DNA of 44,071 bases, from positions 1 through 44,071 of IMG/VR virus record IMGVR_UViG_3300027833_000087; one strand, given 5' to 3'. Position numbers and translations under genes: made by a program. The notes under the pieces are model-generated. The model worked only from the letters and a program-made list of their open reading frames with translations, was not told the DNA's origin and ran no database searches. Origin of the DNA: a virus. Positions 9,101-44,071 of the stretch are shown piece after piece. Each line of letters opens with the position of its first letter. Positions within the stretch are counted from its first letter, which is position 1.

Positions 9101-12087
9101 TAAGCCTCTAGCCTACCTTGTATGTACGCATTGTTAAAGCTAATACCAGTTGGTATCATTTTGTCAATTTCAGATTTAAGAGCATTACTCATTTGCACTA
9201 TAGCGCCTGGGTTGTCTGTAATCGTTTTAAGTAACACCCCGTGAAGTAATTCGTGCTGAGCTGTGGTTACAGCCTTATTTGTACCCGCAACATCTTCATT
9301 AATTACTATGCTTTGTGTTCCATCGGGGTTCTGCATGATAAACCCATTCTGCTTTACAGCTTCCTCTACATTTATTAACTTTTCTTTATCAGCCTCCTTT
9401 TTGCCTTCGTTTCTTTTATTTATATCAGCATTTTGCTGCTCAACCGCTTCTCTAACTTTCGAAGTATTTCCTTTATCAAATTTAATACCTAAAGCTTCAG
9501 CGATTTTTTTAGACCCGGCTTCTGTTTTTTGCTGTATAACTGCGGACTGCTGTGTAACCTGAGAGTTTTCTATTTTAACGTTTATTGCTTCAATTTCCGC
9601 ATCGATGCCTTTTGTATAACGCGGATCGGCTTTTGATTTTTTATCTAGCAATTGATTTTTTTGTACTAATAAATCTATTTGCTCATCATTCATTACATCA
9701 GGAGCTACGTTAATAGCTTTTATAATATCAGCACCATATTCTATAGCAGAATTTATTTCGTTTAATTGTCTTTGGGCTGCTTCCTTGCTTTGCTGGGTTC
9801 TGGCTCTTTTTAACTTATTTTCTACAATTTTTTTAGTTTCTTGTAGAGTTGTTATTACATCAGCACCTTGGGTTCGGTATTGATTATATATTTTGTTTTT
9901 GTAGTTTTTAAATTGAGCAGGAGCCATAACTGCTGAGGTACTTCCTGCTAAAAGTATAGTACCAGCTATAGTTTCAAATTGAGTATCAAAATCAAAAAAC
10001 TTTGTCTCATTACTCAATCCTACTGTTATTTTAGCTATATCATTTAAAAGCAATTCAGCCTCTTCCTCCCCTATTTCCCCTATAAGGTTGTCTATAAACT
10101 GCTTTGTTACAACTTTTATTCCGTCTTTAGTCGTAACTTTCTTAAGGTTTTCTACAAAAGTTTTCTTTATAGTAGCCCCGGCCGTTGTGCTAAAAAATTT
10201 ACTGTCAGGCATTATACCTTGTACCAATGCAGTGGAAAAGGAAGTCATTGTTGAGTAGGCTAGCGATTGACTGTTACTTAAGCCCATCTGCTTACCTTCT
10301 AAATAATTATCATTAACGGTGGCTCTAAAAGCAAACCCACCCATTTTCACTTTGTTTATAGTTTGAGCACTAGCCCCCATACCGCGCATGATAGAGTATG
10401 CGGTTCTAAGTCCCTTAACGTCCCCTTTACGAGCAGCAAGAGCTACCCCTATTGTAAATGGCAGCATGTTTGCAATAGTTTTAGTTGTAGACCTGAAGGT
10501 GAGGTTGTCCATAGAAATACGGCCCCCTTTATCGCTTATTCCAAAATAATTAATATTGTTATAATTAGAAAACGTATCGCTAATCATATCAAGGCTAGTA
10601 TAGTTGTCTTCGAAATAATCAGAATCTATAGCGTCCCAAGCTACCCTATTAAGCCATATAGATGTACCAATTGTGGCGTCTCCTATCAACTTCTGGCCAC
10701 CTTGAATAAGAGTACCTACGGCATCTCCAAGATCACCTATATAACCCCCGTCAATATGGCGATCTCTCCACTTTTCAAAGTCATCAGTCATTTGAAAATT
10801 ATTAGCAAAGGATTGTTCACCAATATTGTAAGCTAATTCAGCAGAAGTGTCTTGTATTTTTATAGCAGCATTGTAAAGTATACCTTGAGCAGCGTTAGCT
10901 ACCTCAGGCGTTATATTAGCGGCCTCGTCTGCAGCAAATATTATATCTTCAGCTTTATTGTATTCAGATACATATTCATCATAGGATTTATTTAGCACTA
11001 TACTTTTAGCTCCTGTAATAATCATTTCTTTTTCAGCAAGAGGCACGTTGCCATCAAGTATCTTGCCTACTAGTTTTTTATTACCTGAAATACCGTTTAT
11101 TATTTCATCTTCTACTCTTTGATCAAATACTTTTTTTTCTTCTTTTGTTTGACCTAAGTCGCTTTCGCCAAAGCTACTGTATGTGTCTTTCGTTCTAGCT
11201 GTGGTTATTTCGTTTAATAACAAGTTTTGCTCTTGGTATTTTTCTTTGTCATAAGAAGTTTCAAACACATTATCCTGCATGTCCTCATAACGCCCAGCGT
11301 ATACTTCAAATTCTTCTTGGGTAATTTCGCCAGCATTGTATTTATCAATACCGCTATTCATGTATGCCTCGGCATCATTTATCTTTTTCTTATATTTGTT
11401 TCTTTGGCTAGAGTCAAAAGTTCTGCTTTCTTCTAGCTCGTTTTGCTTGTTATATTCAAGCTGATCAATTTGTTTTTGTATTTCTGCTCCCTCCGCGGAC
11501 ATAAGAGGGTAATTTTTTTGTTTGTTCTTTAAAAATTTAAGCTCATTGTCGTAAATTGATAAAGCAGCCTCGTTTCTGTCAAAAGCAGGGTCCTCGTATA
11601 AGCTTATAACAAAATCGCTAGGGCTATACTTTGGATCAGTTAGCTTAGGTTTTTCTTTATTAGCTTCGTATATTTCTTTTTCTTCTTGAAAAGTGTACTG
11701 AGATTCTGTTGGGCCGCCGGGCCTATTTATCCATGCAGATAACTCATCTGCAGAAAGATCAGGATTATCAGCAATATAAGCATTAGTTTCTTCCTCCCAC
11801 TCTTTTACTGTAATAGCATTGCCGTAGCCGTCTGTTTGTATTTCTACCTCATCCAGCCTGGACACCGAAAAACCATCTTCCGAGGCGGAATCCCCATTTG
11901 ATGCTTGACTTGTCTCCGGAGTTACAGACGCATCGGTCTCCGCATCTCCGTTCTGAAAATTTTCAGCAGGGGGTGTTTCGCTAATAAGCTCAGCGTTTGG
12001 GTATTTTTCTAAAAAGTAAGGTACTAATCCTTCAGAAATTTCTTTGGTTACAGGATTACCGTCTATATTTATTTTATACTTAGGCAT
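3106..12087 (-). CDS. Giant 2993-aa multidomain internal virion or polyvalent protein
   Basis: One uninterrupted frame. Residues about 30-80 are acidic and low-complexity. Hydrophobic helices occur near 700-718 and 2685-2710. H945-E-L-L-H949 after a strand-helix pattern (V-T-T-A-Q) is a zincin metallopeptidase motif; E1006, E1007 or E1014 could be the third ligand. A K-P repeat lies near 1258-1272. G-G-D1776 ... I-E1789-L-K1791 fits the D-x12-ExK core of PD-(D/E)XK nucleases. F-D2016-F-D2018-D-T-L, L-T2095-A-R and A-D2151-D2152-H give a HAD phosphatase domain, about 2010-2170. The last 100 residues are highly charged coiled coil. Such patchworks resemble phage polyvalent or ejected proteins that enter the cell with the DNA. 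It is encoded after two other internal virion candidates, as expected for ejection proteins. No RNA polymerase motif was recognised. The overall role is inferred; the HAD motifs are the most secure. Confidence 0.85.
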   Translation of the reverse strand: MPKYKINIDGNPVTKEISEGLVPYFLEKYPNAELISETPPAENFQNGDAETDASVTPETSQASNGDSASEDGFSVSRLDEVEIQTDGYGNAITVKEWEEETNAYIADNPDLSADELSAWINRPGGPTESQYTFQEEKEIYEANKEKPKLTDPKYSPSDFVISLYEDPAFDRNEAALSIYDNELKFLKNKQKNYPLMSAEGAEIQKQIDQLEYNKQNELEESRTFDSSQRNKYKKKINDAEAYMNSGIDKYNAGEITQEEFEVYAGRYEDMQDNVFETSYDKEKYQEQNLLLNEITTARTKDTYSSFGESDLGQTKEEKKVFDQRVEDEIINGISGNKKLVGKILDGNVPLAEKEMIITGAKSIVLNKSYDEYVSEYNKAEDIIFAADEAANITPEVANAAQGILYNAAIKIQDTSAELAYNIGEQSFANNFQMTDDFEKWRDRHIDGGYIGDLGDAVGTLIQGGQKLIGDATIGTSIWLNRVAWDAIDSDYFEDNYTSLDMISDTFSNYNNINYFGISDKGGRISMDNLTFRSTTKTIANMLPFTIGVALAARKGDVKGLRTAYSIMRGMGASAQTINKVKMGGFAFRATVNDNYLEGKQMGLSNSQSLAYSTMTSFSTALVQGIMPDSKFFSTTAGATIKKTFVENLKKVTTKDGIKVVTKQFIDNLIGEIGEEEAELLLNDIAKITVGLSNETKFFDFDTQFETIAGTILLAGSTSAVMAPAQFKNYKNKIYNQYRTQGADVITTLQETKKIVENKLKRARTQQSKEAAQRQLNEINSAIEYGADIIKAINVAPDVMNDEQIDLLVQKNQLLDKKSKADPRYTKGIDAEIEAINVKIENSQVTQQSAVIQQKTEAGSKKIAEALGIKFDKGNTSKVREAVEQQNADINKRNEGKKEADKEKLINVEEAVKQNGFIMQNPDGTQSIVINEDVAGTNKAVTTAQHELLHGVLLKTITDNPGAIVQMSNALKSEIDKMIPTGISFNNAYIQGRLEAYKSDPSSVEAEELLTIFSEGLTQGFIAFEENTFTKIGDFIRQGLQRAGMKVTFNSGKDVFNFIKDFNKSVIDNKGLGKGLTKAATEGVKIGKKLGASSAFLYDANFEANVQSAYNSPKLDLPRKALGIAMAYRARVQELINKSSSNVFGSREKTNAIEYALIGRDNPNSIYNTVLNYDSNSKMSLDETIGRTISGIGESAASKPGFKASRKLTEAEENRMEAIDGEIDAISEQLAQNEIQQDTHDRLIEKLEEEYENIENPPKVEAKAKPKPKPKPKAKTDNVKAKALKKEKVLIGDAINKMIPEDMTSAEWPEVAGKIIVAFQDGMLFPLFKKQIAKMGIVENDIYGKTSKEFYDATIGVQYIKNILNFKPKTKENPQGNDDFGGYIIGSEFGLNNRIKEALTELRKGKELNEASDVSNAKGIVAEESSNEVKEKPKYRSLTDAGVVSGEVIKAVKAKLKTVLRTVKSRMDAAISNNRTVTPLMAEIQFEMGKQADIDLKKAMGGKKDGKLRKFLLKTKKATLQNMTTTWLMGKDGQGGIPQAIQKKVDGKWLSYPAWVGKEIDREKTSTDNAGRTSGALLVRRHPSIVNYKNVDEIIDNDTYLAQFLDETGNPIRGRKEALAKAMAEEISFEIFSTDLADPASEISEAFESNQERQGAILAENFIQQIDNDIDRGNIKFSKSFKNPQFIKIHNIALDILVDKGMDAYNDYVDSVENVELRNLVRNYFDNNLWRAGKFADYKAKNKGLSYEKFIKKVLSATNQKNVKVKLIGNKKGIGGDLILQIGTEIIQIELKLNDNAQMSSFSVKYTEGVASLTKPEVLKTEGGKELLKKLNSENYKKKIEAYHKAALDYAKKEGYFAEIKNGKLRAEGAVFTKMVETGDLAKLNLQIPSDATVIQEMYNNEGVYYVDFGNKGLFYMGEDINGLGVPELKADVTLYARMTKGSKNKQGIYTASMRVFPNINGEIKESTTSLSDVKEIKKFIQSAVNTEKINKGNVGNKAITEGLKSSKPTKGISVFDFDDTLARTKSNVLYAMPDGTKGKLNAAQFAAQSETLLDQGAEFDFSEFSKVMKGELGPLFSEAQKKEGKYTNKDIFVLTARPANSAKAIHEFLRSEGLNIPIENITGLGNGSPQAKADWMVSKIADGYNDFYFADDHMGNVKAVGKALKGKGVKGQTELSIVDFKNQPKAVRDILNTFDVKGPTQRSRIKFNRSSNKTFNDMLERASGIKSRKRLTQVEGRQLGKNKGRFKIWMPSSLEDFRGLTEYTFAGKGRQGDADQKFFRDALITPYWRGINEMDQVKQSLKNGFAALNKKFKPVMKKLGKKIPGMVHTHDQALRVYLWNKAGYEIPGLTRKQERELVRYVQNDAELLAYAKGALQMSQRKEWSKPSDYWDVQTILSDINNFTEKAGRKEYLKEFIDNADLIFSEANLNKIEAIYGKDHRDAIVDILYRMKNGTNRAAGMKKNEQAWNNWLNNSIGAIMFFNRRSALLQTLSIVNFVNWSDNNPMKAAAAFANQAQFWSDFAMIFNSDKLKQRRSGLKTDVNAAELASAVTGATDKASAALNYLLKIGFTPTQMVDSFAIASGGATFYRNRLNTYLKEKGADGKPKYTQKEAEKQAFFDFSVVSRETQQSGDPALISSDQSSSLGRVVLNFMNTPIQLNRSIKKSAQDIYNRRRTPGMSQAQSDFSNFSKIIYYGAIQNAIFSSLQAAMFALIPGFNDDEEEEGKLTMQEKTDKKLFQVINSMVDTTLKGGFGLPGAVVSILKNAIIEYKKQEDRGFLADDSKTLIALLNISPAVGSKARKIVNFIKTERFDKEVIGERGWDVTIDGKFNLSPRWSSAGNLIEGTLNIPTARVVDELNSITEALDSRNTAWQRIALALGWKTWNVGSKNEENDLIEVRIKSENKERKKEENKEKRKQKKLLEEMEEKDRRSKLSQDDRDLEDWEKRQRRKIKSRNTRAKTKKKKDSIKTVEANERIAAIAKKRKEKEEANKNK

Positions 12088-14233: not shown

Positions 14234-15538
14234 TTAAATCAATACGTTGTCTAAATCTAATGTACTCGTTTTGGATATTGAACCAGGGGTATTAACATTG
14301 ACAACAACAGTAGCTGTTAATGCAGCGGGAGATAATAAATTATTTACCTCAAATGTCTGACTTACCATGGTGTAGTTAAAGTCCTGTGGAGGCACTGCTG
14401 GATCTTGCCCCGTCCAGGCTAGCGCCGGAGGCGGATTATTTGCTACCGTGAAGGTGCTCGTAGAGGTTGCGGTGACAGTGTATATCACTTGCTGCGGTAT
14501 AGAATAAGGCAAATAATACCTAACAGCTGTAGCTCCAGGAGTAATAGCGGCGTTTGTACTAGTAAATACTAAGCCTAAACTTGCCTGCCCATATTGATTT
14601 ATAGACGGAGTAGATGTTTGTCCATTAGCGGTGTTAAAGCTAGTTGCTAAATCGCCAGTGAGCGCAAAATTGTATGTTCTATTTACATTTGTAGTTGCGG
14701 GAAATACAACATTCACAACAGCTTGTCCTGTAGCATCTATAGTGCCGGAAGTATTAACTATGTTTACATTTCCAGGAGTATAAACACACCGCAAGTCCCA
14801 GTTAGCGCCTGTTATTCCGTATATTGTGAACGCTCTTGTTTCTCCCCCTTGAGCTATTACATTTTGAGTATTAAATTGATAGCCTGTTATCTTTACGGGA
14901 GGGTTATAATATTGTACAGCGTTGGCTGTTAAGGTCAGGGTATCCCCAGAAACATTGTCTGCAGGAAATTTATAAGAAACAGAAAATGTTACCTGCACAA
15001 GCCTGTTTTCAGAATCAAAAGACTCAACGCTTGTTACCGTGTAATTTTTTCTATTGCCTTGGTTTATTGAAAGAGTCGGCGTGGTTGCGAAATAATAGCC
15101 GGCTAAAGCCACAATAGCCTGAGTGAATACTGTTGTAGTAGTGTCCCATGTCCCGCTTGAGCTAAAATTTAAAGGTAAATCTCCTGCAGCGGGCGTAGAT
15201 ACGTTAGTTATGCCTCCACTTTCCGCGGTCCCCGCTATGATTATCGGTGTTTCTGAAGCATAGCCTTGAATACAAAGAGATATAAGCACGTTTATACTAG
15301 GCATTACACTAGGCGAATCGTAGGTTATAACACAATCTACATTCAACCCATTTTGAGTAAAAACAACGCTACTCACATACGTAGGTAAAGGGGTTATTGG
15401 TGAAAAATTAGCTGCGATTATAGTATAACCTGCATCTGGGGTTATTGTTAATAAAACAGAAGGATTTGCTATTGTCCAATCCGTTCCTGCTGTTTCAGAA
15501 AAACTTACTACGTTTACTGTAAAATTATCAAATGCCAT
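14234..15538 (-). CDS. Beta-rich tail-associated protein
   Basis: 434 aa, dominated by Thr, Val, Asn and Pro with alternating strands and no clear helix, as in stacked Ig-like domains. Segments such as Y-T-I-I-A-A-N-F-S-P and D-C-V-I-T-Y look like Ig or fibronectin-type strands. It starts 11 nt after the tail-hub gene ends and is co-oriented with it. The likely role is a tail appendage or decoration, possibly binding the host surface. The family was not recognised. Confidence 0.6.
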   Translation of the reverse strand: MAFDNFTVNVVSFSETAGTDWTIANPSVLLTITPDAGYTIIAANFSPITPLPTYVSSVVFTQNGLNVDCVITYDSPSVMPSINVLISLCIQGYASETPIIIAGTAESGGITNVSTPAAGDLPLNFSSSGTWDTTTTVFTQAIVALAGYYFATTPTLSINQGNRKNYTVTSVESFDSENRLVQVTFSVSYKFPADNVSGDTLTLTANAVQYYNPPVKITGYQFNTQNVIAQGGETRAFTIYGITGANWDLRCVYTPGNVNIVNTSGTIDATGQAVVNVVFPATTNVNRTYNFALTGDLATSFNTANGQTSTPSINQYGQASLGLVFTSTNAAITPGATAVRYYLPYSIPQQVIYTVTATSTSTFTVANNPPPALAWTGQDPAVPPQDFNYTMVSQTFEVNNLLSPAALTATVVVNVNTPGSISKTSTLDLDNVLI

Positions 15539-15549
15539 AATATTTTTTT

Positions 15550-18500
15550 TTAAGAGAAAGGTATTACTATACCCATGGTTGCTGTAGGGCTACTCAAATT
15601 TCCACACCAAGCTTTCACAACAAAAACCCCGCAATTACCTTGAAACCCTGAGGTAGGCGTATATGTAAAACTTCCTGTCGTTAAATCTAAAGTCAAGCCA
15701 GATGGATTTTCTAATAGATTATTTTCTAGCGTGAAATATATACCTGTAGAGCATGTGTTACTTTGCTGGATAGTATGGCTCACGGTTTGATTTTCTATTC
15801 CTGGGAACGTTTGCTTAACAAGCACCGGAGCAGTGGGTATAGTCGAACAATCCGGATCTATCTTGTTTGTAACCTGAAATTCTGTTTGAATTGGGCCAGA
15901 TATAACTGTAGCTCTTCCAATACCTTGAACGTTAAACTCGCTAGAATCCACATTAGTGTTGCAATTTGTTGTAAAAAAAGTATCAAGACCCTTTATATAA
16001 TTAAAGTACTTACCTTCTTTCTTTATGAACTCTTTGATTTTACCTTCTTGCAAGTCTGTAACAATAGATTCCGCAAACCAACCTTTGGTCCTAACCGAAG
16101 AGGTAGGCGTTAATCGCTGTGCCTGCACCTCGGCTAAAGAGTATTCCTGAAGGCTAGCCCCTACTCTGTAAATATATTCTCTTGATTTTGTACCGCTATA
16201 GTTAAGAGTTTTATACCCTTTTACTACGGCTGGGTTTTCGTTGAATATAGTGGTAAATGAACTATAATGATACGCAGGGGTTGTGCCTATACTGTCAGGC
16301 CCTACATTGTAAAAAGTATTTCGTTTTTCATTTGTTCCATGCTCCCATATTCTACCTCCTTTAAATGTGTAATAAGCATTATCCAAGTAAGCTCCCGCTT
16401 CTGGTATATAAACTTTTCTTGATGTAAAACCATTTATTGCTTCTTTATACGAAACAGTTGTAGTAGTTGTAGGTAAAGAGTTTACAAACTGATCACACAA
16501 TGGATGCTTATTAAGCCTGTCAAATTCTCCAGCCCCTAGTGTTTGTTGCCAGTAGGGGGTTAAAGAATTTAATGTTACATTGTAATTCCTTTTGTTAGGG
16601 TCCCACGTCCCTAGTATTTTATTGTTAATAGGTAGGTTATCAGAGAAAAACGAGTGCATGCCATAATCAGATAAATCTGTTATACCATCACCTGAAAGCC
16701 TAAGGACGGCGCCTCTAGTTGCATCGGTGTAATACATTCTAAATCCAAACTCAGCAAATGACTCGGGATTTTTAGCTATACCAAATTCACCTTGAAATGT
16801 TAATGTCTGCCCTAAAACTTCAGCGTTAGAAGTTAAGTTAGTGCTGCCGTCGGCATTAAACAAAGCATCTTTTTTAGCAAGTATTTTCATAGACTTATTT
16901 TCACATAAAGTGATTAAGTCAGTGTCTCTTGTATGAAACTTTTGTATACTTCCGTATTCTGGGTTTAAATCTTTAGTAATAGACTCTGCTTGTATAAACT
17001 GGTTTAAGTTATTTACACCAGATATAGAGTTAAATATTTGTGAAAATATTATACCGCTGGATCTAATTTCTTCGTTATAAGGTTCATCTAAAGTAGCAGA
17101 AGCCTTAACGCCATTTTCAATTGTAGGCTGGTTAAAATCGTCTCTAATGCGATCAGATTCAACCCCATTACCAAATGAATAACAGTTAGTAAACTCTAAT
17201 GTGTGCGTTTGGCCTGTATATTCTGAAGTTTTATAAACTTTAGGCACTTCCCAGTATATATCTAGCTCTGCTGCTTCTTTAGGCTCTGTTTCAAATATAG
17301 CTGGATTTGCGGTGGAAAAGCTATCGTCTTCTTCAGATAGCTCTATAAATTCAATACCCACATAAGAATTCGCCCAGTTATTTGCATCAGTAGGGGCCCA
17401 AGGCTGAAGCCCGTTTTGAGTTCCACCACCTTCTAAATTTATTTGGTCTGTTAAAGGATTCCATTGCATGCCTTGATTACCTTGCGCCTCTGCCACTCTA
17501 AAACTTAATGTCCAGTTGGTAATTTGATTTGCAGAGTTTTCTCCTTCATTACCGTCCCAGATGTCCCCGCAGTCACATTGATAAGTTAACCCTTGTTTTT
17601 CAACTGAATTATATACTCTATATACAGTGCCTTGGGGGTCGGCTACCTCATTACCTGCCTTTATAAATCTAAACAGGGTGCTGTCTTGTCTTAATTGCTG
17701 TAACAAATTAGGGTTACTGCCGGCAATACCGTTTTCTTCAGTACCTGCACCTACTTCATTTTCGCAAAACCCAAATCCTCCAGCCCAGGCTATATCTATT
17801 TTATTTTCGCCCCCTTCTGTATAAATACCACTTCCTTCAGGGATATACTGAGTACAACCCGTTCTTATTCTATTTATAAAAAGCCTTTCAGGAGAGTTTT
17901 GAGCGTCAGGAGGATTAGGAGAATTTCTCCAATTGTTTTTCCACCAGGATTCTGAATTAGTATTTCCTCCATTAAAGTTATATAAATATCCTAAAGCTTT
18001 TCTTAAGTAAGATGCGGTAGCCGTATTGCTGGCTTGAGCTATTTTTCTTCTAAGCAAATCGTCTTGAAAAACCTTTACAAAAAACCTACCTGTAAATTCA
18101 GGTTTGTTTTGAGATTCTACTCTAATAATTTCTAATTCTAAATTATCTACCCTGGTAGGAAAACCAAAAGGTTCAGTAGACGTAAAATTCATGTCAGGTC
18201 CAAATACCTCACTGGAGTTAATTAACACTTGTGAAGTGGTAGGCGCTGTAAATGATGCTATCTTATAATATTTACTAATCGACAGCCCTGACTTAACCCT
18301 CATTAATAGTCCCGATAAAGTTTTTGTTTCTTCTCCAAATTGATCATCAAACGCAGTTTTATCGACTATAACTTTGTTTGCCCCTTCTATTGGAAAACCC
18401 GCTACTGTAAATACGGTAGACATAGCCCCTAAAGAAATTTTTGTTTCTTTTAAATAAGTGGGCGCTTCGTTTTCTATTGCGATGACCTTATACCTTGCTT

Positions 18501-20451
18501 GTTCAACAACAGGTTCTGAATTATCGTGTTCTTTTTTTAATATTAAAAAAGTCTCTTCATCTACTTTATTTCTTTCAGCAGAAGGAAATGACAGCCATAA
18601 ATTACCGTCTTCCGCATCATAAAATCTATCCAATGCTAAATTATAGTATTCCCGCGAAGTTTCTTTTACGTAATACTTAAAATAAGGAAACTGCTTGTTT
18701 TGTTCGTAGTATGGTATTAAAGTTGGGTTATTGCCGTTGCCGGTTAGCGTAACTTGAAGCTTTGTAGATAAAGGTGCTTGCAGTTTTGGAACAATAATAG
18801 ATGCTGCTTTACTTGTAAATACAGGTGTTGTTCTGCCGTATTTATCCATATAGGCTACCCCTATTTGATAAGTTCTTATTGATTTTACAGAAGGAGCAAC
18901 TATTTTGCCTTCTATATTAACAGCCTCTCCTTGAGCCACAGTTGGTAGGCCAACTCTTTGGCTTACTGAAGATGCTTCAATATTGTTTTGAAAAAGCGAG
19001 CCGTTATTATTTAGCAGATTAAAATTTTGCGTATAATTCCCAAATAGCAATCTATTAGCAGTTATTTCCTGAGCTTTAGCTTTACGCGGCACGTTATCAA
19101 ATGGCCTTAATATTTGGTTTGTATTAACAACCGATGTTATTATTTCTGTTGTTATATCAAAAAGTCCTATAATATTATCACTACTATCCTCTACGCTCCA
19201 CTCTGGGTCTTCATTTGTAAAAGTGTCTACTACATATACGTTGGCATTGTTAGTTGCCTTATAAAGTATGTCCACAGCTACGACATCAGGGTACTCTACA
19301 ACATTGGGAGTAAAATGAGATATACTAAGTTGCCTAACATTGTTAGTCATACCTAAGTTGTACCCCTGGCTTGGAGAATAATTAAAATCACCCGGTATAA
19401 ACGCGGGATTTGAAAAAGCAGAAAACGCGGAAATTTCGTTATTTTTGTATTTATACCTATAACCAAATCTTGCAAATTTCATTTCAAAAAACGGGGGATC
19501 CTGTTCTAATGTTACATCATACAATATTGGATTCAAAGTAACACCTTCTGGGGCTGGTCCAACAGAAAGAATACTTACTACAGCCGTGCCTGCGCCTACC
19601 CCTATAACTTTGACTCTTATTACAGCATCTATATCTAATGGATTATTTTCAGCATTAGTAAGAAGTAATATGTTGTCAATAGCGTATACTGGAGGAATAT
19701 TTGAGGACCAAAACAACTGAACCTCAGTGCCTGCAGCAATAGGCTGTATATCCCCTACGACAAGTTCGTTATAAAATGAAAAAGTAGTTTGAGTATCTAC
19801 ATTTGCACCAGGCAATCCGTCAGGACCTATTACACTATTAGAATATGCAGCTACAACAGGCGGCTGCAGTGGATACTTTTTTACTACAGTTATATCATCT
19901 TCAATAAAGTTTCTACCGTATATTTGAGAATGTGTTACAAAATTAGGCGTAGATCCTACCCAATCTTCAACGAATATTTTCTTTGGCTCAGTTTGATTGT
20001 CTGTCCAAATTAATATACCCTCTATTACGTTTATACCTGTAATTAAATAATCCTCACTAAAATTTAAAACACCTTCCGTGTCAACTAATAAAGGCCTAGT
20101 TAATTTCGTGTTGATATTATAGTAAGCTATAACGCTTACAGAATCCGAAGCTATAAACCAATATATATTGTCTGAATTTTCATCCGCTATAGCTCCTACG
20201 CATACAGGATTAGTCAATGCCGTAATATATTTGACATTTCCCCACTGGTTATACGCGTTGGTTTTAGGATTGTACATTTTATTGCGCAATTCTAAGTTAC
20301 CTTTTATATTCTGGAAAGTACCAACTTGAGAGGTATCTGAAGATGCTAACTCTAAATTTAAGGCATCTCTATATTCTCCGTTAGGAACAAGTCTTTCGTC
20401 AAGATCCTTGTTCATTTTACCTGATGTAAACGTGTGTATTAACTCTGCCAT
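15550..20451 (-). CDS. Large tail hub or stabilization-type protein
   Basis: 1633 aa. The N-terminus (T-S-G-K-M-N-K-D-L-D-E-R-L-V-P-N-G-E-Y-R) is a motif I recall from phage proteins annotated as stabilization proteins, which compare to P22 gp10 and T7 gp12 tail-nozzle beta-propellers. Early segments such as D-N-I-Y-W-F-I-A and I-L-I-W-T-D-N could be propeller blades. The C-terminus (about 1530-1633) is Ig-like, with S-G-L-T-L-D-L-T-T-G and a Y-T-P-T-S-G-F-Q-G motif. It follows the connector genes, the place expected for the nozzle or hub. At more than 1600 aa it is much longer than P22 gp10 (about 470 aa), so extra adhesion domains seem fused on. Confidence 0.7.
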   Translation of the reverse strand: MAELIHTFTSGKMNKDLDERLVPNGEYRDALNLELASSDTSQVGTFQNIKGNLELRNKMYNPKTNAYNQWGNVKYITALTNPVCVGAIADENSDNIYWFIASDSVSVIAYYNINTKLTRPLLVDTEGVLNFSEDYLITGINVIEGILIWTDNQTEPKKIFVEDWVGSTPNFVTHSQIYGRNFIEDDITVVKKYPLQPPVVAAYSNSVIGPDGLPGANVDTQTTFSFYNELVVGDIQPIAAGTEVQLFWSSNIPPVYAIDNILLLTNAENNPLDIDAVIRVKVIGVGAGTAVVSILSVGPAPEGVTLNPILYDVTLEQDPPFFEMKFARFGYRYKYKNNEISAFSAFSNPAFIPGDFNYSPSQGYNLGMTNNVRQLSISHFTPNVVEYPDVVAVDILYKATNNANVYVVDTFTNEDPEWSVEDSSDNIIGLFDITTEIITSVVNTNQILRPFDNVPRKAKAQEITANRLLFGNYTQNFNLLNNNGSLFQNNIEASSVSQRVGLPTVAQGEAVNIEGKIVAPSVKSIRTYQIGVAYMDKYGRTTPVFTSKAASIIVPKLQAPLSTKLQVTLTGNGNNPTLIPYYEQNKQFPYFKYYVKETSREYYNLALDRFYDAEDGNLWLSFPSAERNKVDEETFLILKKEHDNSEPVVEQARYKVIAIENEAPTYLKETKISLGAMSTVFTVAGFPIEGANKVIVDKTAFDDQFGEETKTLSGLLMRVKSGLSISKYYKIASFTAPTTSQVLINSSEVFGPDMNFTSTEPFGFPTRVDNLELEIIRVESQNKPEFTGRFFVKVFQDDLLRRKIAQASNTATASYLRKALGYLYNFNGGNTNSESWWKNNWRNSPNPPDAQNSPERLFINRIRTGCTQYIPEGSGIYTEGGENKIDIAWAGGFGFCENEVGAGTEENGIAGSNPNLLQQLRQDSTLFRFIKAGNEVADPQGTVYRVYNSVEKQGLTYQCDCGDIWDGNEGENSANQITNWTLSFRVAEAQGNQGMQWNPLTDQINLEGGGTQNGLQPWAPTDANNWANSYVGIEFIELSEEDDSFSTANPAIFETEPKEAAELDIYWEVPKVYKTSEYTGQTHTLEFTNCYSFGNGVESDRIRDDFNQPTIENGVKASATLDEPYNEEIRSSGIIFSQIFNSISGVNNLNQFIQAESITKDLNPEYGSIQKFHTRDTDLITLCENKSMKILAKKDALFNADGSTNLTSNAEVLGQTLTFQGEFGIAKNPESFAEFGFRMYYTDATRGAVLRLSGDGITDLSDYGMHSFFSDNLPINNKILGTWDPNKRNYNVTLNSLTPYWQQTLGAGEFDRLNKHPLCDQFVNSLPTTTTTVSYKEAINGFTSRKVYIPEAGAYLDNAYYTFKGGRIWEHGTNEKRNTFYNVGPDSIGTTPAYHYSSFTTIFNENPAVVKGYKTLNYSGTKSREYIYRVGASLQEYSLAEVQAQRLTPTSSVRTKGWFAESIVTDLQEGKIKEFIKKEGKYFNYIKGLDTFFTTNCNTNVDSSEFNVQGIGRATVISGPIQTEFQVTNKIDPDCSTIPTAPVLVKQTFPGIENQTVSHTIQQSNTCSTGIYFTLENNLLENPSGLTLDLTTGSFTYTPTSGFQGNCGVFVVKAWCGNLSSPTATMGIVIPFS

Positions 20452-23028: not shown

Positions 23029-23118
23029 AATATAATATAATATAAATGTTAATAATGTATGACAATAGCCTGTTACTATTTAATATAACTACCTACTGTC
23101 GCTAATAGTAGTAATAAC

Positions 23119-23143
23119 TACCCCCGTAGATTCAACGAGGGTA
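23119..23143 (-). other. RNA stem-loop after the major capsid gene
   Basis: Read on the minus strand, UACCCUCGU pairs with ACGGGGGUA through nine consecutive pairs including one U-G wobble, around a 7-nt loop. On the plus strand the same position would be a mismatch, so the structure fits the late mRNA. It has no U tract. It may protect or process the abundant capsid mRNA, or weaken read-through to the next gene. Confidence 0.5.
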
Positions 23144-40819: not shown

Positions 40820-41104
40820 CTATTTTTTACTTTTAGTTTTACGCTTAGGCACCTTATACTTCTTTCTGCCCTCCTTTTTAGTACCCTCACCATCATTTGC
40901 GCGGTTTCTCGAAACCTTCTCCCATCTTCCATCCTTATGATCCCAATCTTTACCTTTAACATTGACACCTCTCCTCTTAGCCTTACGTCTCTCCCTCTGC
41001 GCATGAGCCTTTTTAGCCCTCCTCGCAGGTGTTTTAGCAAAAGCTAAGTCCCTAGCAGCCTTACGCTTCCTCGCCGCAGGCGATAATTTTTGTTTTGAGG
41101 CCAT
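40820..41104 (-). CDS. Basic 94-aa protein, first gene of the late unit
   Basis: 94 aa, strongly basic (MASKQKLSPAARKRKAARDL). The first half is one Lys/Arg/Ala helix with a loose S-P-A-A-R-K variant of the motif found in other late proteins. The second half has G-K-D-W-D-H-K-D-G-R-W-E and R-N-R-A-N-D-G-E-G-T-K-K. I recall similar small basic proteins next to fibre genes in marine phages. A DNA-binding or virion role is possible; no catalytic evidence. Its start at 41104 marks the left side of the divergent control region. Confidence 0.7.
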   Translation of the reverse strand: MASKQKLSPAARKRKAARDLAFAKTPARRAKKAHAQRERRKAKRRGVNVKGKDWDHKDGRWEKVSRNRANDGEGTKKEGRKKYKVPKRKTKSKK

Positions 41105-41401
41105 TTTTTTTAAAATTTAAAATATCTGACTAAAGCGCCAGTACTATGACTAATATAATTACCCGATTTTGCAAAAAGCTACGGCTGTAAAAATTTTTTG
41201 TTGCATAATTAGAGGTAAGGGGCTATATAGTAAATTGAAAAACATTTTTCGTTACGGAAATGAATTTGATTTGACCCACCCCCCCTTTGATTTTAGGGAT
41301 TGGGGTTTAGGGTTTGCCTTTAGCCGTGGGTTTACGGCCAGGGTTTAGGCTTACTAACTAGGCTTTAGCCAGGTACTACAGCGGATGCGGTTGCACGCAG
41401 C
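41105..41401. other. Divergent control region without a gene
   Basis: 297 bp between the minus-strand late unit and the plus-strand small genes, with no frame worth calling. It holds an A/T-rich part near the late start, a run of 7 C (41279-41285), the GGGTTTA repeats, and a hairpin GCCGT-GGGTTT-ACGGC (41323-41338). Promoters for both directions are expected here, but only the plus-strand element starting at 41430 could be matched to a repeat family. Confidence 0.6.
41303..41347 (+). repeat. GGGTTT(A/G) heptamer repeats
   Basis: Four copies: GGGTTTA at 41303, GGGTTTG at 41310 directly after it, GGGTTTA at 41328 and at 41341. With GGG at 41296-41298 the G-tracts could fold a G-quadruplex. It resembles a plant-type telomere unit only by chance of sequence. 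Function not known; a protein-binding array is possible. Confidence 0.55.
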
Positions 41402-41425
41402 GCGTGTATAGCAACGCGTATAGCA
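41402..41425 (+). repeat. Double TATAGCA repeat, copy 1
   Basis: 24 nt made of two TATAGCA units joined by ACGCG, with a GTG before the first. It lies 4 nt before promoter-like element 1. Identical copies occur at 42344 and, without the first two bases, at 43518. Confidence 0.75.
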
Positions 41426-41429
41426 TTTT

Positions 41430-41462
41430 GCAGACGAATCACGTTGATCCATAGATAATATA
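41430..41462 (+). promoter_or_regulatory. Promoter-like element 1
   Basis: GCAGAC-G-AATCACG at 41430 and GATAATATA at 41454, preceded by TT so the first part begins TTGCAGAC. The 24-nt offset is identical in all seven copies. The ATG of the 24-aa frame is 34 nt after the element. Confidence 0.7.
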
Positions 41463-41496
41463 GTTGTAAGATAATAATAATTAAAATAAATATAAG

Positions 41497-41571
41497 ATGA
41501 AAAATTTAGATCCCGCTTTAGAAATGAAAATCCAAGATATTAAAGATCTTATCTACCGCTGCCTGAGGTAA
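41497..41571 (+). CDS. Possible 24-aa leader peptide
   Basis: ATG at 41497 gives a 24-residue frame (M-K-N-L-D-P-A-L-E-M-K-I-Q-D-I-K-D-L-I-Y and on) that follows promoter-like element 1 after an A/T-rich leader. Its TAA stop is exactly the 3-nt loop of a perfect hairpin (CTGAGG/CCTCAG). That layout suggests an attenuator-like leader peptide or coincidence. The peptide is a charged helix with no known function. Confidence 0.35.
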   Translation: MKNLDPALEMKIQDIKDLIYRCLR

Positions 41572-41596
41572 CCTCAGCCGGTCCTTGATACCAAGG
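41563..41596 (+). other. Two adjacent hairpins after the 24-aa frame
   Basis: CTGAGG-TAA-CCTCAG (41563-41577) is followed by CCTTG-ATAC-CAAGG (41583-41596). There is no T tract after either. They may terminate or pause transcription from element 1 before element 2 starts at 41607. Confidence 0.45.
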
Positions 41597-41606
41597 CGGA
41601 TCATTC

Positions 41607-41639
41607 GCAGACAAACCACGTCTACTCTAAGATAATATA
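41607..41639 (+). promoter_or_regulatory. Promoter-like element 2
   Basis: GCAGAC-A-AACCACG at 41607 and GATAATATA at 41631, offset 24. Preceded by TC, not TT. The 59-aa gene starts 41 nt after the element. Confidence 0.7.
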
Positions 41640-41679
41640 AATGTAAGTAAGTAACTAATAATAATTTAATATAATAACA

Positions 41680-41859
41680 ATGACAAAGATTCTATTCAAC
41701 ACAGTCTACAAGACTATCAATCAGATCACAAACAGTAACAAACTGAACAGACCAGTCCATATAACATACGGCGGACTGATAGCCGACAACAGTGACGTCG
41801 AAACAATAACCAAGATACTGGACCGTGAAATAATAAAGTATAAACTAAAATCCATATAA
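41680..41859 (+). CDS. Small early gene, 59 aa, function unknown
   Basis: Found by hand translation: M-T-K-I-L-F-N-T-V-Y-K-T-I-N-Q-I and on, ending K-Y-K-L-K-S-I. It is the first of four tightly packed small genes after promoter-like element 2, with an A/T-rich leader and no Shine-Dalgarno sequence. The central T-Y-G-G-L-I-A-D-N-S could be a strand-turn. The whole stretch has a strong excess of A over T. It is not recognised; small early phage proteins often modify host enzymes. Confidence 0.6.
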   Translation: MTKILFNTVYKTINQITNSNKLNRPVHITYGGLIADNSDVETITKILDREIIKYKLKSI

Positions 41860-41861
41860 CT

Positions 41862-42032
41862 ATGACCTTACAAGATCACAACACAATCAATGAACTGATA
41901 AGGTTCTACCAGAAGAACAGAAGCGAAGCCGACTACAAGAAAGGGATACAACCTATCGACGGCCACAAGATCGACAGCCTGATGATGTCTAACTATCTCC
42001 AGGGCAAAGAGCTAGACCTAAACATATACTAA
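41862..42032 (+). CDS. Small early gene, 56 aa, function unknown
   Basis: The ATG is 2 nt after the previous stop. The product reads M-T-L-Q-D-H-N-T-I-N-E-L-I-R-F-Y and ends E-L-D-L-N-I-Y. It is polar and probably helical. It lies in the same operon as the 59-, 46- and 21-aa frames, since no promoter-like element lies between. The family is not recognised. Confidence 0.6.
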   Translation: MTLQDHNTINELIRFYQKNRSEADYKKGIQPIDGHKIDSLMMSNYLQGKELDLNIY

Positions 42033-42047
42033 TCTAAAACCAAACAA

Positions 42048-42188
42048 ATGAGAACACCAGAACAAATTATACAAGCGTACGCCATGGGATTACTAATGCC
42101 TGGCGAGGTAGTAAGCCAGATGAAGGATCACTACCCAGGACTGAACCCAGTACAGATTATGAACACTATAAACACCATACTAACATGA
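42048..42188 (+). CDS. Small early gene, 46 aa, function unknown
   Basis: M-R-T-P-E-Q-I-I-Q-A-Y-A-M-G-L-L-M-P-G-E and on. A helix followed by L-M-P-G-E-V-V and another helix with D-H-Y-P-G-L-N-P looks like a compact helix-turn-helix-sized domain, but no DNA-binding signature was recognised. It starts 15 nt after the previous gene and overlaps the next frame by ATGA. Confidence 0.6.
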   Translation: MRTPEQIIQAYAMGLLMPGEVVSQMKDHYPGLNPVQIMNTINTILT

Positions 42189-42250
42189 GAACATTCAAGA
42201 GGATACTTGCCGACCTGGCTCGAGGAGCTGGGTATGCATTAAGAAACTAA
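42185..42250 (+). CDS. Possible 21-aa basic peptide
   Basis: The ATG overlaps the TGA of the 46-aa gene as ATGA. The peptide is M-R-T-F-K-R-I-L-A-D-L-A-R-G-A-G-Y and on, a short basic amphipathic helix. Coupling supports translation; the length leaves it doubtful. It is the last frame of the element-2 operon before a structured gap. Confidence 0.4.
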   Translation: MRTFKRILADLARGAGYALRN

Positions 42251-42408
42251 GATCACGACCTCGCGGCGACAATGCCTGACCCCGAACCCTAGAACGGAAA
42301 CTAGCAGCTGACGTGGCTGTGGGTCACAGCGGCAACGCCGGAGGCGTGTATAGCAACGCGTATAGCATGTGACGTTATGTCATGTCATTTTGTCACCCCC
42401 CCATTTTT
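42251..42408. other. Structured gene-free region before element 3
   Basis: No coding frame is seen. Hairpins GCTGTG-GGT-CACAGC (42316-42330) and ACGCC-GGA-GGCGT (42335-42347) lie close together, followed by the second TATAGCA repeat and by GTGAC...GTCAC pairs around 42370-42396. It may end the previous operon and separate it from element 3. Confidence 0.5.
42344..42367 (+). repeat. Double TATAGCA repeat, copy 2
   Basis: Identical over 24 nt to the copy at 41402. It ends 41 nt before promoter-like element 3 and overlaps the end of the hairpin at 42335-42347. Confidence 0.75.
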
Positions 42409-42441
42409 GCAGACAAACTACGTTCACTTTTAGATAATATA
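42409..42441 (+). promoter_or_regulatory. Promoter-like element 3
   Basis: GCAGAC-A-AACTACG at 42409 and GATAATATA at 42433, offset 24, preceded by TT. It is followed by an A/T-rich stretch without a gene, then by element 4, so the two act in tandem on the 106-aa gene. Confidence 0.7.
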
Positions 42442-42512
42442 GTTGTAAGTAAGTAATTAATATAAATAATAAAATAAAAATAAATTAAGAAATTATTTAA
42501 TAATACAAAGTT

Positions 42513-42545
42513 GCAGACTAATCACGTCTATAAATCGATAATATA
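42513..42545 (+). promoter_or_regulatory. Promoter-like element 4
   Basis: GCAGAC-T-AATCACG at 42513 and GATAATATA at 42537, offset 24, preceded by TT. The 106-aa start is 44 nt after the element. Confidence 0.7.
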
Positions 42546-42589
42546 ATTGAATACTAATAATAATAATTAATAATTAAATTCTAAATCAA

Positions 42590-42910
42590 ATGGAAAATTC
42601 AAACGAAATTTTACAGAATGCACTGAAATCAATGTCCAACGAAGATAAAGCTAAAATCTTCCCACCGATCGAGCGAAAGAACTTCGTAGTCCGAGAAAGC
42701 TGGATGAATCGAAATCAAATAATAACTTTTGTGAACAACAAAAATCAGAAAGTTACGTACAACCATGACGAAGTACTGAATGCAATGCTACCGAAATTAC
42801 AATTCCAAGCTTGCTGGCTTAAGCGAAAGTACTGGTCTCAAAGCACTAACTTGCCGACGAATGTGAGGCACTTGGCTACGATCGAAGAGCTAGAGTCTAC
42901 TGAAAAGTAG
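42590..42910 (+). CDS. 106-aa early protein, function unknown
   Basis: MENSNEILQNALKSMSNEDK opens a helical start; the middle has E-S-W-M-N-R-N-Q-I-I-T-F-V-N-N-K-N and K-V-T-Y-N-H-D-E-V-L, a strand pair followed by a helix, and the end is F-Q-A-C-W-L-K-R-K-Y-W. The largest gene of the right arm. It is served by two promoter-like elements in tandem, suggesting strong expression. The fold is not recognised; no catalytic motif. Confidence 0.75.
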   Translation: MENSNEILQNALKSMSNEDKAKIFPPIERKNFVVRESWMNRNQIITFVNNKNQKVTYNHDEVLNAMLPKLQFQACWLKRKYWSQSTNLPTNVRHLATIEELESTEK

Positions 42911-42929
42911 GCTTAGGCTTCGGCCAAAT

Positions 42930-42962
42930 GCAGACGAATTACGAGTACTAATAGATAATAAT
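42930..42962 (+). promoter_or_regulatory. Promoter-like element 5
   Basis: GCAGAC-G-AATTACG at 42930 and GATAATAAT at 42954, offset 24, preceded by AT. The 46-aa gene starts 23 nt after the element. Confidence 0.65.
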
Positions 42963-42984
42963 AATGTAACTAGAACTAAATAAT

Positions 42985-43125
42985 ATGAACTATACTGAAA
43001 CGAAAGAAATGTTAGAACTATGTCAACGAAGTCTAAGCTATCACGGATGTGAGCCGATCGCTGACGATATACAAAAAGCACTAGATAATCTAGAGTATGC
43101 AATTAATAATAACTTAATAGAATAA
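42985..43125 (+). CDS. Small early gene, 46 aa, function unknown
   Basis: M-N-Y-T-E-T-K-E-M-L-E-L-C-Q-R-S-L-S-Y-H and on, ending A-I-N-N-N-L-I-E. Helical, acidic. It is preceded by the leader A-A-C-T-A-A-A-T-A-A-T-ATG that is repeated before the gene at 43299. First of three genes driven by element 5. Confidence 0.6.
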   Translation: MNYTETKEMLELCQRSLSYHGCEPIADDIQKALDNLEYAINNNLIE

Positions 43126-43127
43126 TT

Positions 43128-43283
43128 ATGAACCGAATTGAACAACTAATTGAGGATAGATATCCAGGACAACTAAACGAGATCTTAGATCAAATCGAGA
43201 TCTTATCAAAAGAGTATGACGAAGAACAATTCCTCGAAGAGGATATACTAGAGAGTATACTAATGGAACTAGATGTAATATAA
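43128..43283 (+). CDS. Small acidic early gene, 51 aa, function unknown
   Basis: M-N-R-I-E-Q-L-I-E-D-R-Y-P-G-Q-L-N-E-I-L and on, very rich in Glu, Asp, Leu and Ile (I-L-S-K-E-Y-D-E-E-Q-F-L-E-E-D). Starts 2 nt after the previous stop, so it is probably co-translated. An acidic helical protein of this kind could act as a DNA mimic or inhibitor, but that is a guess from charge. Confidence 0.6.
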   Translation: MNRIEQLIEDRYPGQLNEILDQIEILSKEYDEEQFLEEDILESILMELDVI

Positions 43284-43298
43284 TTAAAACTAAATAAT

Positions 43299-43445
43299 AT
43301 GTGGAGTAACTGTTGTGGCTCAGAGCCAAGCTATTTAAGCGAAGAACTATGCGGATCGTGTCTAGAGCACGCCGTATTTGATGACGAAGATGAGGATGAA
43401 ACCTGTAGAAACGGTAAAGAATGGAACAAATGTGACTGTTGTTAA
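43299..43445 (+). CDS. Small Cys-rich, probably zinc-binding protein
   Basis: 48 aa starting M-W-S-N-C-C-G-S-E-P-S-Y-L-S-E-E-L. Eight cysteines: C5-C6, C18-x-x-C21, C36, C45, C47-C48. The C-C...C-x-x-C spacing fits a zinc ribbon or knuckle, with an acidic D-D-E-D-E-D-E linker (28-34). Small Cys-rich phage proteins starting M-W-x-N-C-C-G-x-E are, from memory, common in marine phages. Function unknown. Confidence 0.65.
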   Translation: MWSNCCGSEPSYLSEELCGSCLEHAVFDDEDEDETCRNGKEWNKCDCC

Positions 43446-43468
43446 CTAACTAAAAAAACCACACCTCA

Positions 43469-43490
43469 GCGTGTGTATAGCATAGGTATG
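43469..43490 (+). repeat. Partial TATAGCA repeat
   Basis: GCGTGTGTATAGCA then TAGGTATG. It has one TATAGCA unit after a GTGT and shares the preceding CTCAGCG with a second occurrence at 43499-43505, 33 nt further on. It is probably a decayed copy of the double repeat at 43518. Confidence 0.5.
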
Positions 43491-43517
43491 TTCCGTCCTC
43501 AGCGGGCGGTCATAGCG

Positions 43518-43539
43518 GTGTATAGCAACGCGTATAGCA
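43518..43539 (+). repeat. Double TATAGCA repeat, copy 3
   Basis: 22 nt identical to the last 22 nt of the copies at 41402 and 42344. It ends 21 nt before promoter-like element 6, in a 115-bp gap without a gene between 43446 and 43560. Confidence 0.7.
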
Positions 43540-43560
43540 CGGTAAAATCAGTGCCACCTT

Positions 43561-43593
43561 GCAGACGAATTACGCTCACCTATAGATAATATA
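43561..43593 (+). promoter_or_regulatory. Promoter-like element 6
   Basis: GCAGAC-G-AATTACG at 43561 and GATAATATA at 43585, offset 24, preceded by TT. The 51-aa gene at 43616 starts 23 nt after the element. Confidence 0.7.
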
Positions 43594-43615
43594 TGTGAAT
43601 ACAAAATAACACACT

Positions 43616-43771
43616 ATGGAAAAAGAATTTAAAGATTGGATGGAAGACGGTAATGTTGAGAAGATCGGTGAAAACACCTATATTGAGCAAACTACCCAAT
43701 GGAGAAAGAAGTTTACGATGTCCGAGTTAATCGGGTTTTACAACCGAGAGTACCGATTGAGTCAGTTTTAA
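43616..43771 (+). CDS. Small early gene, 51 aa, function unknown
   Basis: M-E-K-E-F-K-D-W-M-E-D-G-N-V-E-K-I-G and on, ending E-Y-R-L-S-Q-F. Charged, with aromatic residues (W8, W29, F33, F41, Y42, Y46). The only gene driven by element 6. No motif recognised. Confidence 0.65.
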   Translation: MEKEFKDWMEDGNVEKIGENTYIEQTTQWRKKFTMSELIGFYNREYRLSQF

Positions 43772-44041
43772 GGGTCGATGTTGGAGAAATGGATCCCACT
43801 GAGCTAACTTAGATAACTAAGCTTTAGTTAAGTAATACTAGTGTAGAGTAGTCAGAGACTATCTATTAGACTATAACTACTATTTACTTGGAGTAATAGA
43901 ATTACACTTAAACAACTAGTATTTTATTAAATTAATATAATTACCTGTTTTGGAGTGAAAGCTACAGTAAATATGGGATTATTTAAGTGAGTAAGAGGTA
44001 TTAAGTGTTTGTAAGTGGCTACGGTAATGGTTGTCACGGTT
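43772..44041. other. Gene-free region with inverted repeats
   Basis: No frame longer than a few codons on the plus strand. It holds AACTAA-GCT-TTAGTT near 43816-43830 and a widely spaced inverted pair AATACTAGT (43834-43842) and ACTAGTATT (43915-43923). Transcription from element 6 would read into it, so it may be a 3' structured RNA or terminator region. Confidence 0.45.
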
Positions 44042-44071
44042 GCAGACTAATTACGACCACCTTTTGATAAT
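44042..44071 (+). promoter_or_regulatory. Promoter-like element 7, cut by the window edge
   Basis: GCAGAC-T-AATTACG at 44042 and GATAAT at 44066, offset 24, preceded by TT. The rest lies beyond the window, where another small gene is expected. Confidence 0.65.

Follow-up and report, generated by a model that had tools for sequence, protein, structure and literature searches.

Seven copies of a promoter-like element lie at the right end of the linear virus contig IMGVR_UViG_3300027833_000087 (44,071 bases, analysed at full length and called the window here), and they raise the question of what the element is and which polymerase reads it. We refer to this element as motif 1 and to a second promoter class as motif 2. 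Judged from the sequence, motif 1 is very probably the early promoter of the phage. The reading we favour, with a probability of roughly 70%, is that motif 1 would be used by the host RNA polymerase, which would need an extra specificity factor there, and that a phage-encoded sigma factor would then direct transcription from motif 2. The sequences themselves show the conservation, strand, fixed spacing and position of motif 1, the presence of the sigma gene in relatives and its covariation with motif 2; what we infer in this reading is transcription itself, its timing, the use of the host core polymerase and the extra factor.

The window phage is a podovirus whose terminase, portal, capsid, GroEL and GroES genes are on the minus strand; the contig's left end holds part of a ribonucleotide reductase. 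Its terminase is closest to that of MW202828 (63%) and also related to those of Flavobacterium elemo and Cellulophaga phages; these relatives, together with the labels of metagenome-assembled genomes (MAGs), point to a host in the Bacteroidota. All family relatives are metagenome contigs, genes were called mechanically and the sequences are related, so that the counts given below are not independent.

Motif 1 in the window and across the family

The seven copies named in a preliminary description were all recovered at the positions given there, on the plus strand, with GATAAT exactly 24 nucleotides (nt) after the G of GCAGAC and with TTG preceding five of the seven. The core of the unit stood as described; its extent did not, the conserved unit being longer, with TT in front and TGWAA behind. 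Elsewhere in the window, late genes included, the spaced pair is absent, the reversed pattern has no match, and shuffled sequences would be expected to contain none. Start codons at 41497, 41680, 42590, 42985 and 43616 come after copies 1, 2, 4, 5 and 6. The features of this region are as follows.

41428..41469, plus strand: motif 1 copy 1 (putative early promoter), TTGCAGACGAATCACG-N10-GATAATATAGTTGTAA
41605..41646, plus strand: motif 1 copy 2
42407..42448, plus strand: motif 1 copy 3, in tandem with copy 4
42511..42552, plus strand: motif 1 copy 4, upstream of the conserved gene for a 106-residue protein
42928..42969, plus strand: motif 1 copy 5
43559..43600, plus strand: motif 1 copy 6
44040..44071, plus strand: motif 1 copy 7, truncated by the contig end at the last base
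41497..41571, plus strand: open reading frame of 24 residues after copy 1, read from the sequence
41680..41859, plus strand: early gene of 59 residues after copy 2, conserved in relatives
42590..42910, plus strand: early protein of 106 residues, after copy 4
42985..43125, plus strand: early open reading frame of 46 residues after copy 5
43616..43771, plus strand: early open reading frame of 51 residues after copy 6
41406..41425, 42348-42367 and 43520-43539, plus strand: repeat GTATAGCAACGCGTATAGCA, shortly before motif-1 copies 1, 3 and 6

The record ends at copy 7; intact equivalents of this copy in two relatives (44980 in G002 and 23831 in G006) are both followed by genes, and the window stops short of the region that holds a sigma factor gene in these genomes. 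Like the repeat GTATAGCAACGCGTATAGCA in the window, GTATAGCA precedes motif 1 in relatives G003, G008 and L203.

About 100 IMG/VR contigs from related phages also carry motif 1, with the register unchanged and the copies on the early-gene strand. A strict pattern retrieved nine IMG/VR contigs, eight of which encode terminases 73–76% identical to that of the window, and a relaxed pattern at least 119 IMG/VR stretches; reversed patterns gave almost no matches, and an off-by-one control pattern run against all of IMG/VR gave three single hits. The consensus is TT(A/G)CA(A/G)AC-n-AAnYACG-N10-GATAATATAnnTG(A/T)AA. In the window's clade, 64 unique sites give the logo TT(G/A)CA(G/A)ACnAAnYACG-N10-GATAATATAnnTGWAA, and the family-wide logo is TTTACAAACnAAATACGA-N9-GATAATATAaaTGtAA; relatedness among the sites of one clade inflates the information content, which amounts to about 41 bits over two blocks. 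Among 84,980 bacterial species genomes, exact copies were limited to four contigs of three MAGs, which are presumed from clustering to be phage DNA, and on this ground a bacterial chromosomal element was rejected. Isolated phages contained no full-length match, and no description was found in the open-access literature, which is not proof of absence.

The layout of the element is that of a bipartite promoter. Among 162 sites, the start codon lies most often 16–24 nt after position 37 of the motif, a purine preceded by T at position 36, which fits a predicted transcription start (+1) at this purine, 7 nt after GATAAT. With the purine as +1, GATAAT covers -12 to -7, and (G/A)CA(G/A)AC, which ends 18 nt ahead of GATAAT in every copy and differs from TTGACA, covers -36 to -31. 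The preliminary description had proposed TTGCAG as the -35 hexamer with a 20-nt spacer; we prefer GCAGAC and an 18-nt spacer, because +1 then lands on the conserved purine with the ATGs 16–24 nt beyond. A further conserved block, AAnYACG(A), spans -29 to -22, and the earlier idea that ACG marks an additional contact would fit the conservation at -25 to -23. A(-11) and T(-7) of the -10 element are found in 99–100% of 361 sites, a conservation that is partly built in, as these sites were seeded on [GT]ATAATA. A -10 element with these two bases, a purine at +1 and a -35 element at 16–18 nt are the characteristics of sigma70-type promoters.

Directionality, fixed spacing, distance to the ATG, the -10-like core and the purine initiator all support the promoter identity first proposed, and they bear on the view that motif 1 is an operator, a replication or packaging signal or an RNA leader element, which we regard as highly improbable. 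Its length and strong conservation, those 41 bits in two blocks, would suit such a role, and MW202828 has a palindromic, operator-like element at the equivalent position. Motif 1, however, is not palindromic, and it stands on one strand before gene groups, mostly one copy per group, at a narrow distance from the ATG. As an RNA element it was rejected, since the copies fold no better than their shuffles.

Early promoters normally serve the host polymerase, and motif 1 might accordingly be a host sigma-A promoter of great strength that needs no helper, over-optimised like those of other virulent phages. The presence of A(-11) and T(-7) would agree with this, as would the failure to find a virion polymerase and the lack of any excess of other host-type promoters in the early region: five were seen on the early strand against 6.5 expected, and without enrichment the host sigma-A pattern was rejected for the early regions. 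Flavobacterial sigma-A sites, on the other hand, are variations on TAnnTTTG at -12 to -5 (PMC9723704). The canonical box, already noted as not evident in the preliminary description, fits neither register of GATAATATAnnTG, in which positions 34–35 are not T, and no TTG is found 17–23 nt upstream. The block at -29 to -22 corresponds to no known sigma-A contact, and the restriction of exact copies to so few bacterial contigs also argues against a host-type site. We therefore consider recognition by sigma-A alone unlikely; the unusual block and the missing host-type -7 box suggest an extra specificity factor.

A phage sigma factor and the putative motif 2 promoters

Just downstream of the motif-1 cluster, relatives of the window phage encode a 255-residue protein that, by homology of its regions 2 and 4 to SigA/RpoD, is a sigma70-family factor. 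The protein matches PHROG 351 (E 1e-19) and PDB profiles of SigA and FliA (down to 2e-11), and its medium-confidence model (predicted template modelling score, pTM, 0.46) matches sigma chains in Foldseek (E 5e-6); its Pfam hits fell below the cut-off, and isolated phages yielded no match. Of 48 contigs that reach 40 kb or more, 37 have the gene; among the others, several break off inside the motif cluster or shortly behind it. The option of a phage sigma factor, raised in the preliminary description, thus holds in so far as the protein exists in relatives; covariation ties it to motif 2.

Loci fetched with the sigma protein alone, independently of the motif, contained motif 1 under the strict pattern in 39 of the 47 cases with 8 kb of upstream sequence, and six more (L203, L211, L215, L219, L234 and L251) carry a variant in the same register. 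Across the sigma loci, copies upstream of the sigma gene number 323, against 24 downstream of it and 2 on the opposite strand, so that upstream copies are 13 times commoner than downstream ones; six patterns with shifted spacing gave one match in total versus 347 copies on the motif strand. The gene order is conserved as motif-1 cluster, sigma, motif 2 and ERF gene. Sigma, motif 1 and motif 2 are all absent from MW202828 and elemo, and in loci L263 and L270 sigma is present with neither motif found. In these two loci, short repeats that end in GCCTAAC...GTTAGGC stand between the genes upstream of sigma (L263:5223-8564 and L270:2606-7621), reminiscent of the attC sites of integrons or of gene cassettes within a phage genome.

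Motif 2 has the form [G/T]TAAA...GTRATWATAT, with [C/T]GTRATWATAT on the -10 side and the -35 element exactly 19 nt upstream. Its sites lie right after the sigma stop codon, before the ERF recombination gene, and also precede late genes, among them GroEL and the first gene of the late block. Two sites are found in the window.

41153..41182, minus strand: motif 2 (putative late promoter and proposed sigma target), GTAGCTTTTT-N10-GTAATTATAT, upstream of the first late gene at 40820-41104
43935..43965, minus strand: motif 2 copy, antisense to early genes

The site at 43965-43935 occurs at the same place in G002, G006 and G004, and one base weaker in G003; it may give rise to a late antisense RNA that shuts the early genes down. 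Before the ERF gene of G045, G028, G053, G058 and G007, motif 2 ends a few bases from the ATG, a short distance that suggests leaderless mRNAs. An inverted repeat with an AT-rich centre, TGACAnTAGGTAG...GGCTAnTGTCA, is found in a late-gene upstream region of the window (about 23050-23130) and upstream of the first late gene in G027, G055, G058 and G014.

The first base of the motif-2 -35 element follows a single residue in the recognition helix of sigma. Among 71 loci, a VS-E-L/I-K helix goes with G in 42 and a VS-Q-L/I-K helix with T in 24, leaving five exceptions, among them L278 with an offset of one base. Mapped on a tree built from the N-terminal part of sigma, the E/Q residue switches 5 times, and the base and the joint state 9 times each, as expected if each residue switch coincides with a base switch. 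The E/Q position aligns with Q589 of sigma70, a residue in contact with the T that opens the -35 element (PMC8561392). The motif-1 consensus, in contrast, is identical between the 195 sites of the E group and the 166 sites of the Q group, and although L247 and L251 have a near-identical region 4, one carries ACGA and the other ATAA. Because the -35 base of motif 2 follows E/Q while motif 1 stays constant, and because a near-identical region 4 accompanies different ACG blocks, the promoter that sigma reads is most likely motif 2, not motif 1.

These observations disfavour sigma as the reader of motif 1, an arrangement in which it would target motif 1 itself and exert positive feedback on its own operon, and which we judge improbable. 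Sigma and motif 1 do co-occur, with both missing from MW202828 and elemo, and in some genomes sigma sits directly behind a copy within the motif-1 region. Beyond the constancy of motif 1 across the E-to-Q change, under which motif 2 changes, and the L247/L251 pair, recognition by sigma could account for the first round of transcription only with sigma already in the virion, and L263 and L270 have sigma without motif 1.

Candidate readers of motif 1

Related crAss-like phages use a virion polymerase, and the high information content of motif 1 recalls phage polymerase promoters, which could favour a phage-encoded RNA polymerase, virion-borne or early. This too has very little probability in our estimate. 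A polymerase such as the preliminary description had envisaged was not found among the proteins scanned (part of the family's proteins), which gave no match to polymerase families, and the bipartite 41-bp layout with its -10/-35 spacing is typical of sigma-type promoters. The giant virion proteins, one of which is the 2993-residue product of 3106-12087 (minus strand; conserved C-terminal third, HAD-like DFDDT stretch, no family match), lack a conserved DxDxD and share no recognisable relation with the N4 or crAss polymerases. Compared with N4 gp50 and phi14:2 gp66/67, they reached an hhalign probability of <1%, and they had no PDB or Pfam match; a virion polymerase in these proteins was rejected for want of homology to the N4 or crAss enzymes.

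A tentative proposal for the extra factor is a non-sigma or otherwise novel specificity protein, supplied by the phage to the host core polymerase; if true, this would be a new route to redirect the bacterial polymerase as infection begins. It is similarly tentative that such a protein would be virion-borne or the product of a first gene, for example of the 106-residue family. This family occurs in 13 of the 13 near-complete motif-1 genomes compared, is absent from MW202828 and elemo, and was not found in L263 or L270. The protein encoded in the window is predicted to fold with confidence (predicted local distance difference test, pLDDT, 89) and had no match in Pfam, PDB, BFVD or isolated phages; it is a candidate helper at motif 1, as a lead only.

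Several points weigh against the scheme of a host-read motif 1 followed by a sigma-read motif 2. Two loci, L263 and L270, carry sigma without either motif, and 24 of the 347 motif-1 copies lie downstream of sigma. The covariation comes from related sequences in which parsimony counts only about five E/Q switches. Early and late timing is deduced from gene content and order, and sigma combined with another protein could read motif 1.

The proposed transcription plan

In the scheme we favour, motif 1 would be a double-stranded promoter for the multisubunit (host) RNA polymerase in Bacteroidota podophages, needing a specificity factor beyond unaided host sigma-A. Its copies would fire the early operons leading to the phage sigma gene, and the sigma made there would direct motif 2, which would serve the recombination genes after sigma and the late genes on the other strand.

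In SPO1 (gp28, gp33-34) and T4 (gp55), early genes encode sigma factors that redirect the host polymerase to a second promoter class. The present family would be comparable in its presumed early sigma gene and proposed second promoter class, and differs in belonging to another family and host phylum, in an early promoter that is not of host sigma-A type, and in its sigma, which has regions 2 and 4 and goes with a -35 base that varies together with the Q589 equivalent. T4 middle promoters (MotA/AsiA) likewise combine a -10 element with a conserved block near -30 that replaces the normal -35, a layout that suggests an added DNA-binding factor; the motif-1 class, however, appears to be early, not middle, and the family scans revealed no relative of MotA or AsiA, without a search dedicated to MotA. 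Motif 1 shares A(-11) and T(-7) with Bacteroidota sigma-A promoters (TAnnTTTG at -7, TTG at -33) but lacks the TTTG part and a TTG at 17–23 nt. crAss-like phages (phi14:2) and N4 have a similar podovirus layout, a weakly related muzzle protein and a divergent early block; they use a virion polymerase, whereas here none is detectable and a sigma factor is present instead. Elemovirus and MW202828, of the same terminase family, share terminase, portal, capsid, GroEL and gene order but are without sigma, motif 1 and motif 2, and MW202828 has CGGTGTCGTTAACGACAC before its early genes. In this genome (L020, about 14500-19900), many small early genes have the operator-like palindrome CGGTGTCGTTAACGACAC 20–60 nt ahead of their ATG.

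The analysis proposes, from sequence alone, a transcription plan for a large, so far uncultured family of aquatic Bacteroidota phages. The plan consists of a class of early promoters, a sigma factor, and a second class in which the -35 base varies together with a DNA-contacting residue of sigma. It separates having a phage sigma from that sigma reading motif 1. The promoters of this family may become tools in a phylum where standard promoters fail.

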